Assembly (NCBI GenBank): GCA_004367505.1
Contig: SFCB01000226.1
Coordinates: forward strand, 1 to 54,787
Source: Chloroflexi bacterium OHK40
Lineage (GTDB): Bacteria; Chloroflexota; Chloroflexia; Chloroflexales; Chloroflexaceae
Length of the DNA stretch: 54,787 bases
Direction of reading: 5' to 3'
The position numbers were made by a program, and so were the translations under genes. Within the stretch, counting starts at the first letter, position 1. Each line of letters opens with the position of its first letter. The notes below the pieces were generated by a model. It did no database searches and was not told the DNA's origin. It was given only the letters and a program-made list of their open reading frames with translations. Below, piece after piece: positions 16,872-41,691 of this stretch.

Positions 16872-17966
16872 ATGGCGCACATCCTCTGGCTCGATCCCTT
16901 CCACGGCGGCTCCCACGCGGCGGTGGCGGCCGGGTTCGCCGCGCGCTCGGCCCACCAGGTGACGCTGCTGACGCTCCCGATCGCGGGTGGCTGGCGCTGG
17001 CGCATGCGGGGCGGCGCGGTGACGCTTGCGCGTCTGTCCAGGGCGGCGGACATCCGTCCCGATCTGATCATTGCCAGCGACATGCTGGATCTGGCCACCT
17101 TCCGCGCCCTCACCGCCGAGCTGTTTCACGGCGTGCCGGCTGCGCTCTACTTCCACGAGAACCAGCTCACCTACCCGCTGCCACCCGGTCGCCAGCGCGA
17201 CTTGAGCTTCGCGTGGGTGAACTATACCTCAGCCCTCGTTGCCGATGCGGTGCTCTTCAACTCGGAGTTTCACCGGCGCGATTTCCTCGGCGCGCTGCCA
17301 GCCCTGCTGGGGCGCTATCATGACTATCGTGAGCTGGAAACGGTGGCGGCGATCGCCGCCCGGAGCCATGTGCTCTCCCCCGGGGTTGACCTCGTCTCCC
17401 TGGATGTGGCGGAGCGCCCGGCGCGCGCCCCTGGCCCGCCGATCATCCTCTGGAATAGCCGCTGGGAGTACGACAAGCAGCCCGCCGCCTTCTTCGCGGC
17501 GCTGGAGGCGCTGGAGGCCAGGGGCGTGGCGTTCCGGCTGATCGTCGCCGGCGAGCATATCGACCCGCAGGCGCCCGACTTTGCGGCGGCCCGCGAGCGC
17601 TGGGCTCACCGCATCGTCCACTGGGGCTTTGCACCCACCCGCGAAGCCTACGCCCGGCTGCTGCACCAGGCCGACGTAGTGGTGAGCACCGCCATCCAGG
17701 AATACTTCGGCATCGGCGTGGTCGAGGCGCTCTACTGCGGCTGCGCGCCGGTGCTGCCCCGCCGCCTCAACTACCCCGATCTGCTGCCGCCCGAGTATCA
17801 CGCCGCCTGCCTCTACGATGGCGAGGCGCAGCTCCCGGCGCTGCTTGCGGCAGCCCTCGCCCGGCCAGCACAGCGAGAGCTGTGGCGTGCTATCGCGGCT
17901 CCCCACGATTGGTCCCTGCGCGCGCCTGCCTACGACCAGCGTTTCGCGGCGCTGGCCGGAAGATGA
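16872..17966 (+). CDS. tRNA-queuosine alpha-mannosyltransferase-like glycosyltransferase (DUF3524)
   Basis: The 364-residue product starts MAHILWLDPFHGGSHAAVA, the hallmark N-terminus (PFxGGSH) of the DUF3524 family. It continues with PDLIIASDMLDLATFRAL, ALYFHENQLTYPLP, NYTSALVADAVLFNSEFHR and a GT4-type C-terminal half (VVSTAIQEYFGIGVVEALYCGCAPVLPRRLNYPDL). The vertebrate member, QTMAN (GTDC1), mannosylates queuosine in tRNA-Asp. Bacterial members are annotated as the same domain but their acceptor is unproven. I chose ATG 16872 over 16845 because family homology begins there. No queuosine genes lie beside it. A possible -10 (TAGCAT, 16856-16861) just upstream hints at a leaderless message. 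Confidence 0.8.
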   Translation: MAHILWLDPFHGGSHAAVAAGFAARSAHQVTLLTLPIAGGWRWRMRGGAVTLARLSRAADIRPDLIIASDMLDLATFRALTAELFHGVPAALYFHENQLTYPLPPGRQRDLSFAWVNYTSALVADAVLFNSEFHRRDFLGALPALLGRYHDYRELETVAAIAARSHVLSPGVDLVSLDVAERPARAPGPPIILWNSRWEYDKQPAAFFAALEALEARGVAFRLIVAGEHIDPQAPDFAAARERWAHRIVHWGFAPTREAYARLLHQADVVVSTAIQEYFGIGVVEALYCGCAPVLPRRLNYPDLLPPEYHAACLYDGEAQLPALLAAALARPAQRELWRAIAAPHDWSLRAPAYDQRFAALAGR

Positions 17967-36174: not shown

Positions 36175-37236
36175 TCAGTTTGCCTCGAACTGCTCGAAGG
36201 CGAGGCCATAGCTTCGGGCGGCCACATCGCCCAGGGCGGCTGGCCAGTGCCCCGTGATGGCGCGGGTGATCTTGCCGGCGTGCTCGTGACAGTTCTCGAT
36301 AAAGAGCGTGTAGCGCTGCTGGATCCCGGCGGCAACTGTGCCCGCGAGGTAGACGCCCGGCACATTCGTCTCCATCGTTTCCGGGTTGAAGCTGGGCACG
36401 CGGTTCTCGCCGCGTAGCTCCACCCCGAGCGACTCGAGCAGGCGCTGGTCGCCCCGGAAGCCCGTGGCCAGCAGCACGAAGTCGGTCTCGTGGCGCAGCG
36501 GTGGCCCCGAGGGGCGCGCGAGCTCCACGCAGGTGGGCGTAATCGCCATCGGCGTCGTCTCGGGGAGGAAGCGGATCGTGCCGGCGGCAAACTGGGCCTC
36601 AAGGTCGGGCAGGAGCCAGTGTTTCACGCGCCGCTCGTCGAGGCGGGAACCACGGTAGCTGAGCGTCACTAGGGCGCCCGCGCGCCAGCAGCGCAGCGCG
36701 GCCTCGGCCGCCGAGTTCTTGCCGCCAACGATCAGCAGCCGGCGCCGGAAGTAGTCGTGGGGGTCGCGGAAGTAGTGCGAGACGTGGGGCAGATCCTCGC
36801 CGGGGATGCCGAGGCGGTTGGGCCAGTGCATATCGCCGATGGCCAGCACCACGCGGCGGGCGTGGTAGCGGCGCTCGCCGGCGAGGGGGGCAGTGCGTAG
36901 CATAAAGCCGCGCTCGACGCGCTCGATGGCGGTTACGGGCTCGTAGGTGTTGATGCGCAGATCGAACTGCTCGACGATAGCTCGCAGGTAGGCCAGGTAC
37001 TCCTCACCAGTGATGCGCCCCTGGTGACTGTTGGGGATAGGCACGCCGGCGAGTGCGAGGCGCTCGGTGGTGCTGAAGAAGCTGGTGTTGCGGGGCCACC
37101 AGGTGAGCGTGTGGCCAATCTGAGCCGCGTCGAGGTGCAGGTAGGGCACCCCGGCGCGGGTGAGGCAAACGGCGAGCTCGATGCCGATCGGGCCGGCGCC
37201 GACGATCGCTACCTCAAATGGGGTCGGTTCGCTCAT
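36175..37236 (-). CDS. FAD-dependent NAD(P)-binding oxidoreductase, YpdA-like
   Basis: The 353-residue product has two Rossmann motifs: [17 protein letters not shown] at the N-terminus (FAD) and [19 protein letters not shown] near residue 175 (NAD(P)H). The arrangement [28 protein letters not shown] and C-terminal [33 protein letters not shown] resembles the YpdA-type bacillithiol-disulfide-reductase group and thioredoxin-reductase relatives. No CxxC redox pair is present, as in YpdA. Whether this organism makes bacillithiol is unknown; a ferredoxin-NADP reductase or other role remains possible. A ribosome site, GTGAGGAAC, precedes the ATG at 37236. Confidence 0.8.
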
Positions 37237-37359
37237 GCTGTTCCTCACACTGGAGACGAGGCGGTGAGCCGCCTTCGGTCTCCACCATGATACCCCACTT
37301 CGGGCATGCGCCCTTGCCCGTGGCGCCTGTAGCCGGGGTGCGTCGCCCATGCGCAGAGG

Positions 37360-37375
37360 TGGCACGCTTCCTGCT
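37360..37375 (+). promoter_or_regulatory. Sigma-54-type promoter for the stress-protein gene
   Basis: TGGCACGCTTCCTGCT matches the consensus TGGCACN5TTGCW with GG at 37361-62 and GC at 37373-74 (exactly 10 bp between). It would start a transcript near 37386, about 78 nt before ATG 37464. Confidence 0.55.
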
Positions 37376-37463
37376 TGATGCTGACCAGCCTGGCGGCAAC
37401 GCCGGCCAGGCACGCTGGTGCGGCACGGCGATGTGTCGCCCTGACACCCAGGAGGATAAGATT

Positions 37464-38879
37464 ATGGCAACGACAGTGATCGGGCTCTTCGATAGTTTTG
37501 GCGAGGCCCAGAAGGCAGTGCACGATGTGATGCGCTACGGAGTGCGGCGCGAAGATATCAGCCTGTTAGCGCGGGACGAGCAGGGCACGATCCAGCACGC
37601 GGTGGGCGCCAGCGGCGCGGCCGAGGGGGCCGGGGCGGGGGCGGTGGGCGGCTCGTTGATGGGCGGCGCACTGGGCCTGCTGGTGGGCACGGGCCTGCTG
37701 GTCATCCCGGGGATTGGCCCTGTGCTCGCCGCCGGACCACTGGCGGCCGGGATCGGCTCGGCGGCGGCGGCGATCGGCGCTACGGCGATGGGCGCGGGCC
37801 TGGGCGCGGCGGCCGGTGGTCTGCTCGGCGGGCTGATGGGCGCGGGCGTGCCCGAGGGCGATGCGCGGGCCTACGTGGAGGGCGTGCGCCGTGGCGGCAC
37901 GCTGGTGAGCGTTACGGCTGTTGAGGCTGAGGCGGCCGATGTGCGCGAAATCATGCTGCGCAACGGCGCCATCGATATCGACCGCCGCGCGGCGAGTTGG
38001 CGCGATTCGGGCTGGAGCGATGCCGCAGACAACGCGGTCGATGTGCCCGATGCCGAGCGCTCAGCCGACGACTGGCGCGATAGCACGAGGTCGCGCACGG
38101 CCAGCGGCACCGCTGCTGAGTCTGCCACCGGCGCTAGCATCACCTCCACTGGCGCCGTGATTGGGACCGCCGCCGGCGAGCGCGCTGAGGAGCGCCGGCA
38201 GGGCCCCGGCTTCAGTGAGGGAGCGCTCAGCGACGTCGATCGCAAGATGGCCGATCCGGCCTTCACCAATGTCGATCGCACGGGTGGGGCCGTCAAAGGG
38301 AGCGCGGGCTTCGCCAGCGGCCACCCCCAGCCGCGCGAGCAGCGGCCCGAGACCTTCTCCGAGTTCGCCGCCGATGGCGAGGCAAGCATCCGCGACACCC
38401 CAGAGGGCACTCTGCCAGCCCACGGCGACTACGCCCGGGGCATGCGGGAGGAGCGTGCCGCGCCAACGGAGCCGGATTACGCCCGTGGGATGCACCGTGG
38501 CCCCGAGGAGCCCGGCCAGCGTGCCGACGAGCCCGGAATGCCTCACCACGGCGACTACGCCCGTGGCATGCGCCAGGAGGCAGCCGAGCCCACTCAGCCC
38601 GACTATGGCCGGGGCCAGCGTGGCTATGAGCTGTACGAGACCGAGTTCATCGAGCACTACCGTGGGCTCACTGGCAATGGTGGCCAGCCCTTCGACTCCT
38701 ACCAGCCCGCTTACCAGTTCGGCTACGCCATGGGCGAGGATCGCGCCTATCGTCACGAGAACTGGCAGATGGCAGAAGCCGATGTTCGCCAGTCCTGGGA
38801 GCAGGAGGCGCGCGGCAACTGGGAGGAGTTCAAGCAGAGCATCCGCTTCGGCTGGGAGAAGGCGCGCGGCCTGCGCTAA
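37464..38879 (+). CDS. General stress protein 17M-like protein with HGDYARGM repeats
   Basis: The 471-residue product starts with a YflT/GsiB-17M-like domain (TVIGLFDSFGEAQKAVHDVMRYGVRREDISLLAR). A glycine/alanine-rich hydrophobic stretch (about residues 50-140) and a low-complexity charged middle follow. Repeats of HGDYARGM, PDYARGM and PDYGRGQ occur between about 310 and 390. The C-terminus carries the YETEFIEHYRGL..YQPAYQFGYAMGEDRAYRHENW motif known from Chloroflexota and cyanobacterial stress proteins. The strong ribosome site AGGAGG and a sigma-54-like element upstream support regulated expression. The role is thought to be general stress or desiccation response; no enzymatic motif is visible. 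Confidence 0.78.
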   Translation: MATTVIGLFDSFGEAQKAVHDVMRYGVRREDISLLARDEQGTIQHAVGASGAAEGAGAGAVGGSLMGGALGLLVGTGLLVIPGIGPVLAAGPLAAGIGSAAAAIGATAMGAGLGAAAGGLLGGLMGAGVPEGDARAYVEGVRRGGTLVSVTAVEAEAADVREIMLRNGAIDIDRRAASWRDSGWSDAADNAVDVPDAERSADDWRDSTRSRTASGTAAESATGASITSTGAVIGTAAGERAEERRQGPGFSEGALSDVDRKMADPAFTNVDRTGGAVKGSAGFASGHPQPREQRPETFSEFAADGEASIRDTPEGTLPAHGDYARGMREERAAPTEPDYARGMHRGPEEPGQRADEPGMPHHGDYARGMRQEAAEPTQPDYGRGQRGYELYETEFIEHYRGLTGNGGQPFDSYQPAYQFGYAMGEDRAYRHENWQMAEADVRQSWEQEARGNWEEFKQSIRFGWEKARGLR

Positions 38880-38907
38880 GGCGCCCCTGGCCGTTTATCC
38901 GTCGCCC

Positions 38908-38923
38908 TGGCACGGAACCTGCA
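38908..38923 (+). promoter_or_regulatory. Sigma-54-type promoter for the GlsB gene
   Basis: TGGCACGGAACCTGCA has GG at 38909-10 and GC at 38921-22 with 10 bp between, as in sigma-54 promoters. A 9-bp perfect hairpin (38940-38958) lies in the predicted leader, before GTG 38996. Confidence 0.55.
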
Positions 38924-38939
38924 TATCTAACGGCGAGCG

Positions 38940-38958
38940 GGCCCGGACAGTCCGGGCC
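38940..38958 (+). promoter_or_regulatory. 9-bp hairpin in the GlsB leader
   Basis: GGCCCGGAC-A-GTCCGGGCC is a perfect inverted repeat with a 1-nt centre, between the sigma-54-like element and the ribosome site. Confidence 0.55.
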
Positions 38959-38995
38959 AACATCCACCACAGCGTTCTCCAGAAGGAGGGAACAC

Positions 38996-39271
38996 GTGAT
39001 CAACTTTATCCTCTGGCTCCTGTTCGGTGCCCTGGTTGGCTGGCTCGCGAGCCTGGTGATGCGCACCGACGCCCAGCAGGGCGCGCTGCTCAACATCGTG
39101 GTCGGTATCGTCGGCGCGTTTCTCGGCGGCTTCATCTTCAGTCTGCTCGGCCTCGGCGGCAGCAACATCAACAACAGCGACTTCAGCCTCAGCTCGCTGA
39201 TCGTCTCCTTTGTGGGCGCCATCGTGCTGCTGGGGATCGTCAACCTCTTCCGCCGCGGCGCAGTACGCTAG
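38996..39271 (+). CDS. GlsB/YeaQ/YmgE family stress-response membrane protein
   Basis: The 91-residue product has three hydrophobic segments: [44 protein letters not shown] and [21 protein letters not shown]. This is the transglycosylase-associated protein layout, with the conserved GWLAS and the glycine pattern between helices. It starts with GTG behind the strong ribosome site AGAAGGAGGG. Members are induced by stress and sit in the inner membrane; the molecular role is unclear. A second sigma-54-like promoter precedes it, so it may be co-regulated with the stress protein upstream. Confidence 0.85.
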
Positions 39272-40941: not shown

Positions 40942-41109
40942 CTATGGTATCTGAGCTAGCTCCACCCCATCATCGGCGCCGGGGCTAGCGCACCTCTGAT
41001 AACTCGCCACCAGCCGATCCATGCGCGATCGCTCCCGGGCGAGCCCACGCGCGCTCTGCCGTGAAGGGGTGTCCATTGGTGGCTCATCACCGCCGCTCGG
41101 GTTCAACAT
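40942..41109 (-). CDS. Tiny protein, 55 aa, coupled to the zinc-ribbon gene
   Basis: Reading the minus strand from ATG 41109 to TAG 40942 gives a protein with MLNPSGGDEPPMDTPS, then a basic helical part (RGLARERSRMDRLVASYQRC) and an acidic tail. Its ATG shares a base with the TGA of the 81-aa gene, and GGAGG lies 7 bp before it, so translational coupling is likely. No family is recognised; the small size makes it uncertain. It is below the size most gene callers accept. Confidence 0.55.
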   Translation of the reverse strand: MLNPSGGDEPPMDTPSRQSARGLARERSRMDRLVASYQRCASPGADDGVELAQIP

Positions 41110-41354
41110 CAGCTCACCTCCGGCTGGATCGCGGTCGGAACCGGGACTGCCCCGGTCTCTGTTGTATCGACGGCCACCGCCTCGCTATCGATCGGCTGCG
41201 GGCCGTAGAGCTCGATATGGCCGCAGGCCACACAGACGCGCGCACTGATCGGTTGGGGGTCGGTGCCGCGAGGGCCAGCTAGCATCACCGGGCCGCCAGC
41301 TGTCAGCAGTTCGCTCGCCCAGGTCTCATTGTCGCAGCGGGGGCATCGGATCAT
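41109..41354 (-). CDS. Zinc-ribbon-like small protein, 81 aa
   Basis: The product starts MIRCPRCDNETWASELLTAGG and continues ARVCVACGHIELYGPQPI; CPRC and CVACG form a two-knuckle zinc ribbon spanning about 45 residues. The remaining tail (EAVAVDTTETGAVPVP) is disordered. CAGGAGA lies upstream of the ATG at 41354. Small zinc ribbons of this kind often act in transcription or protein contact; the exact role is unknown. It is translationally coupled to the 55-aa gene that follows it. Confidence 0.72.
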   Translation of the reverse strand: MIRCPRCDNETWASELLTAGGPVMLAGPRGTDPQPISARVCVACGHIELYGPQPIDSEAVAVDTTETGAVPVPTAIQPEVS

Positions 41355-41691
41355 GGTAGGTCTCCTGTGATGCTCTGCCTGGCTCACCCTCCGGCAAGAG
41401 CTGTGCCATCCGGCGCGGTGGTAGAATGCGTGTATTCTCCGGGATTCAGGGGCCAGGGGGAAGCCGCCGATGGCACGGTGCCGATCATCCGTCGCCGCAT
41501 GACCACGGCCCGCCGCTACGGATCGCCTGTCGCCGAAGGCCCGCAACGACGGGAGGCAGCGTGCTGCATCCCCCCGCGCTCCTCCGTGTCCCGCCGTGTT
41601 CCCCTCCGCTCCCCGAACCCCCCTGGGGCCGAGGGGAACGGGACGCCGGTGGGGGCGTGGGGAAGGAGAAACGGGGGGACGAGGAGTTGCC
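41355..41691. other. Intergenic region before the amine oxidase gene
   Basis: A 337-bp gap with an extended -10 (41419-41427) and a 9-bp perfect inverted repeat, GTTCCCCTC (41597-41605) and GAGGGGAAC (41630-41638). No gene is supported. Confidence 0.55.
41419..41427 (+). promoter_or_regulatory. Extended -10 promoter for the amine oxidase gene
   Basis: TGG TAGAAT; would give a leader of about 260 nt that includes the 9-bp inverted repeat at 41597-41638. Confidence 0.45.

Follow-up and report, generated by a model that had tools for sequence, protein, structure and literature searches.

Putative sigma-54 promoters before stress and envelope genes of Chloroflexi bacterium OHK40, and a single GAFTGA activator with a shortened recognition helix

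Results

Sigma-54-type elements and the genes behind them

The stretch of DNA analyzed here, referred to as the window, comprises 54,787 nucleotides and corresponds to contig C260 of the genome of Chloroflexi bacterium OHK40. Three of its genes are preceded by short elements of the sigma-54 type, as follows (scores in bits are those of the weight matrix described below, except for the Pfam families).

37360..37375, + strand: predicted sigma-54 promoter element TGGCACGCTTCCTGCT; exact match, 21.1 bits, predicted start ~37386
37464..38879, + strand: gene of a 471-aa YflT-type protein; PF11181, E 1.7e-5, 25.6 bits (cut-off 26.2); AGGAGG-like ribosome-binding site
38908..38923, + strand: predicted sigma-54 promoter element TGGCACGGAACCTGCA; exact match, 18.4 bits, predicted start ~38934
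38996..39271, + strand: gene of a membrane protein of 91 aa, GlsB/YeaQ/YmgE type; Transgly_assoc (PF04226) at 56.2 bits against a cut-off of 25.3
41109..41354, - strand: gene of an 81-aa Zn-ribbon-like protein; cysteine pairs MIRCPRCDNETW...CVACG, weak Zn_ribbon_3 match
41393..41408, - strand: predicted sigma-54 promoter element TGGCACAGCTCTTGCC; 20.8 bits, homologues of the gene elsewhere likewise preceded by elements, predicted start ~41382

The YflT-type protein matches the heat-induced stress protein domain with a score just below the family cut-off and has a long C-terminal extension, and its gene ends with the stop codon at 38877-38879. Repeated motifs (GDYARGMR, PDYARGM, and PDYGRGQ) are observed in the C-terminal part (38400-38640). 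The membrane protein belongs to the GlsB/YeaQ/YmgE family with a score well above the cut-off.

The first two elements are intergenic and lie on the plus strand, 88 bp upstream of the ATG at 37464 and 72 bp upstream of the GTG at 38996, in agreement with the initial annotation. The same annotation held that no other such element occurs between the genes of the window, and this part does not stand, the third element, at 41408-41393 on the minus strand and 38 bp upstream of the ATG at 41354, having been overlooked. Promoters recognized by sigma-54 (RpoN) show the -24/-12 consensus TGGCACGNNNNTTGCW. The window elements fit the GG-N10-GC spacing within TGGCAC(G/A)N4(Y)TGC(W), except that the last base of the third one is C and not A/T. 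Those at 37360 and 38908 carry CTGC, TTGC being the commoner form. Their transcription starts are predicted at 12 nt after the GC, at the positions given in the initial annotation. A search of 37200-39010 with the E. coli consensus found no sigma-70-like promoter, although the housekeeping promoters of this lineage may differ from it, and the window gave no matches when scanned for Rfam families and tRNA genes.

Occurrence of the elements against chance

The exact pattern TGGCACGNNNNYTGCW is found 19 times in the 6.93-Mb genome, compared with 3 matches for a reversed-pattern control, so that 0.024 matches are expected in the window, where 2 are seen (P(>=2) ~2.8e-4). Moreover, a weight matrix trained on 32 elements located before orthologues in other genomes, none of them from the host genome, gives exactly three window sites of at least 18 bits, namely those at 37360, 41408 (minus strand), and 38908, the fourth-best site reaching 12.9 bits. 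In 200 dinucleotide shuffles of the window, the mean number of sites of at least 18 bits is 0.065 and the maximum is 1. The two-mismatch matches in the window are no commoner than chance, their count falling below it. Loose matching is therefore uninformative, and exact counts, the weight matrix, and orthologues are used instead. Also, the pattern totals are 367 against 145 for the control in rpoN+ genomes and 159 against 115 in rpoN- genomes; these per-genome counts separate both groups only in aggregate, the orthologue promoters being the stronger test.

RpoN and its activator in the host genome

The initial annotation proposed sigma-54 control of the two plus-strand genes and advised looking for rpoN and an enhancer-binding protein in the genome. 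One intact copy of rpoN is present on contig C161 (18308-19648), encoding a protein of 446 aa with the RpoN box ARRTVAKYR and all three sigma-54 domains (activator-interacting, core-binding, and DNA-binding). Its closest named relatives come from Chloroflexales and Oscillochloris MAGs, with 79-84% identity, and rpoN is carried as well by relatives that are cultured or enriched, such as Chloroflexales bacterium ZM16-3 and Candidatus Viridilinea mediisalina. Less than 4 kb from rpoN, at C161:23253-24602, lies a gene whose product is a response regulator, with GAFTGA and a match to the Sigma54_activat domain. The other nine Sigma54_activat matches in the genome lack GAFTGA, which suggests that a single activator would serve the genome, as far as can be read from its sequence. 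Among these nine is an AAA+ protein on contig C257 (~5.8-7.7 kb), rejected as a second activator because it has no GAFTGA; the eight others are weak matches. With a complete Fis-type helix-turn-helix and no GAFTGA, this PAS-AAA+ protein of C257 is the mirror image of the C161 activator, where GAFTGA is present and the recognition helix is incomplete.

Beside the C161 activator, in divergent orientation, lies a paralogue of glsB that shares 96% identity with the window gene and has the element TGGCACGATACTTGCA 74 bp before its start. The genome assembly (6.9 Mb, 301 contigs) has an estimated contamination of 3.5%; nonetheless, the identity between both glsB genes argues that C161 and C260 come from one organism.

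Co-occurrence of elements, rpoN, and activator in relatives

The rpoN family is matched in 92 of the 300 Chloroflexota genomes sampled. For the relatives, an element was called in the 300 bp before a homologue when at least 10 of the 12 specified positions matched, GG and GC being required. By this definition, 24 of 26 rpoN+ genomes have the element before glsB, compared with 1 of 14 rpoN- genomes, and for the YflT-type gene the figures are 13 of 20 and 0 of 9. As these genomes share ancestry, the counts are not phylogenetically independent. The glsB element is conserved at orthologues in 15 genera, most elements in the relatives lie 50-100 bp before the start codon, and no reverse-strand match of at least 11 positions is found in these upstream regions of the glsB and YflT-type homologues. 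For example, in the rpoN- congeners G003, G018, and G026, where a full-length RpoN search found no rpoN, the glsB orthologues are 76-81% identical and the element is absent. In G045 (C2, C8, and C10; L081 and L149-L152), five glsB copies are observed, each having an element 56-59 bp before its start.

The activator follows the same distribution, with an orthologue in 27 of 32 rpoN+ genomes (including partial matches in G022 and G016) compared with 0 of 29 genomes without intact rpoN, these counts not being phylogenetically independent either. Of the five rpoN+ genomes in which it is missing, four are 76-88% complete, and for the remaining one, G004, a completeness of 100% is listed. Homologues of the Zn-ribbon gene are confined to rpoN+ genomes and G013, several of them with elements. 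The exception to this scenario is G013 itself, where elements are present and neither the family search nor the full-length RpoN search found rpoN. This genome is 93% complete and its congener G024 has rpoN, the simplest reading being that the gene would lie on a missing contig. Also, G021 (C57), G027 (C4), and G036 (C40) carry remnants of rpoN that are broken or partial and contain in-frame stops, which suggests that some members of the family have lost sigma-54.

Candidate regulon

When the pattern is relaxed, the genome yields 43 sites and the control 23. Of the 43, eight cluster on C161, in a 17-kb stretch surrounding rpoN and its activator. In this region (L041, C161:10000-29999), two of the eight sigma-54-like elements are divergent and 10 bp apart (C161:16871-16886 on the minus strand and 16897-16912 on the plus strand), between the genes of a GAF histidine kinase and a stand-alone receiver. 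An element together with a plausible ribosome-binding site is found for three GlsB-type proteins, the YflT-type protein, and the Zn-ribbon protein, for YGGT-like, YgaP-TM, DUF883/LEA-like, and DUF2391 membrane proteins, and for a GAF histidine kinase and a diacylglycerol-kinase-like protein; a stand-alone receiver gene also lies behind an element. Beyond the conserved set, this list will hold false positives. The pattern matches at L012, L015, L017, and L029 are not counted as targets, as they look intragenic or have no fitting gene.

The C-terminal end of the activator

The activator carries GAFTGA in its AAA+ domain and lacks a complete helix-turn-helix, as do activators of type Ic. Its HTH_8 match covers positions 7-32 of 42 (E 0.006, under the cut-off), and the Fis-type helix-turn-helix breaks off inside the recognition helix or ahead of it. 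In the family of the window (f1), 12 aligned orthologues keep the activator motif (nine with GAFTGA and three with GSFTGA), and in all of them a short, non-basic end replaces the recognition helix, which is missing or acidic. The alignment holds a thirteenth sequence of this family (G016, C624), which lacks the motif and represents another protein. Altogether, the orthologues deviating from GAFTGA are these three with GSFTGA and four with GAFTSA. In other families of the order, the activator orthologues keep a longer, altered C-terminal end.

A comparison of the 245 bp above 13 elements reveals no shared word and no dyad excess, although the power of this search is low. The shortened recognition helix and the absence of a shared enhancer motif suggest that the activator may work without enhancers, like FlgR and CtcC. 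DNA binding would have been lost together with the recognition helix of the Fis-type helix-turn-helix, and the protein would probably work in solution or through non-specific binding, and not from enhancer sites.

Discussion

A predicted sigma-54 regulon and its alternatives

The window elements would very probably be sigma-54 promoters opened by the sole GAFTGA activator found, driving a small regulon of stress and envelope genes. The retention of elements in rpoN+ relatives and their absence from nearly all rpoN- ones point to such a small regulon, with one sigma-54 and one activator, and support the control by sigma-54 that the initial annotation had put forward for the two stress genes. 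The activator is linked to these targets by being the only GAFTGA protein found in the genome. Speaking against this reading are the elements of G013, the GSFTGA and GAFTSA variants among the activator orthologues, and the CTGC of the first two window elements. In the proposed mechanism, RNA polymerase with RpoN would bind the GG (-24) and the GC (-12) and stay as a closed complex until it is opened by the C161:23253-24602 activator, presumably once phosphorylated by a sensor kinase. This opening would turn on the genes of the GlsB-, YflT-, and Zn-ribbon-type proteins and probably also those of the YGGT-, YgaP-TM-, DUF883/LEA-like, and DUF2391 proteins, along with the kinase and receivers encoded around rpoN. 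The elements, the sigma factor and its activator, the way they occur together, and the cut recognition helix come directly from the computation; from these we infer the activity of the promoters, the phosphorylation of the activator, its independence of enhancers, and the role of the genes in stress.

Other explanations were considered for the elements and for the activator. The sites could be the dyad (TGGCA-N6-TGCC) of an ordinary dimeric regulator that resembles a -24/-12 promoter, given that TGCC closes the third site of the window as well as several sites of the relatives, which thereby come close to a palindrome. However, of the 32 sites, 25 have A/T at the last position and only 7 have C, 31 have G/A at position 7, and the conserved columns are asymmetric, on which grounds a purely palindromic reading is rejected. 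Moreover, every element has one orientation relative to its gene, and its presence tracks rpoN and the activator, which makes a dimeric regulator very improbable. Even harder to accept is that a GC-rich sequence produces the matches by chance and that transcription of the genes starts from an ordinary promoter which escaped recognition. The two-mismatch counts and the possible divergence of the housekeeping promoters from the E. coli consensus searched would be compatible with it, whereas the excess of exact matches, three strong sites against at most one in any shuffle, and the conservation of the glsB element across genera speak against it.

The remaining alternative accepts that sigma-54 drives these genes and differs in the activator, which would bind specific enhancers through a partner protein or its altered C-terminus. 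The first Fis-type helices do remain in the C161 protein, and the more distant orthologues retain the longer end; nonetheless, the missing or acidic recognition helix of the same-family orthologues and the low-power search above the elements, where neither motif nor dyad emerged, make this doubtful, and sigma-54 promoters opened by an enhancer-independent activator are preferred. On balance, we also lean slightly towards a broader view, in which a compact response of stress and envelope genes would be the main use of sigma-54 in much of the order. In these bacteria, one rpoN, one activator without recognition helix, and their targets would constitute a self-contained module where the element alone decides membership in the regulon, and several genera would have lost sigma-54, activator, and elements together. 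The joint absence of the three in several genera represents a natural experiment on the dismantling of a regulon.

Comparison with known systems

Each part of the system is of a known kind. The elements share with sigma-54 promoters the GG-N10-GC spacing, the TGGCAC and TGC cores, and the location before start codons, and the genome likewise holds rpoN and a GAFTGA activator. The difference lies in the targets, which in Chloroflexales are GlsB-, YflT-, and Zn-ribbon-type genes, whereas nitrogen, flagellar, and carbon genes are the usual ones. Sigma-54 and its activators have already been noted in "some Chloroflexi" (Francke et al. 2011, PMC3162934); however, the passages concerned name no targets for this group, and targets are predicted here. 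In the literature searched, no description was found of the content of the regulon or of a wiring with one sigma factor and one truncated activator in this lineage. For sigma-54 in this part of Chloroflexota, small proteins of the stress and membrane type are now predicted as targets, together with one activator.

With regard to the activator, type Ic proteins without a DNA-binding domain are described for Helicobacter (FlgR) and Chlamydia (CtcC) (PMC3162934; for CtcC also PMC7482065). Like them, the C161 protein combines a receiver with an AAA+ domain carrying GAFTGA, is the only such activator found in its genome, and has no usable helix-turn-helix. However, the helix-turn-helix is shortened here and absent there, and the predicted regulon is here one of stress and envelope genes. 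A sole activator without recognition helix parallels FlgR and CtcC, and this case could be used to test whether having one activator relaxes the need for enhancers.
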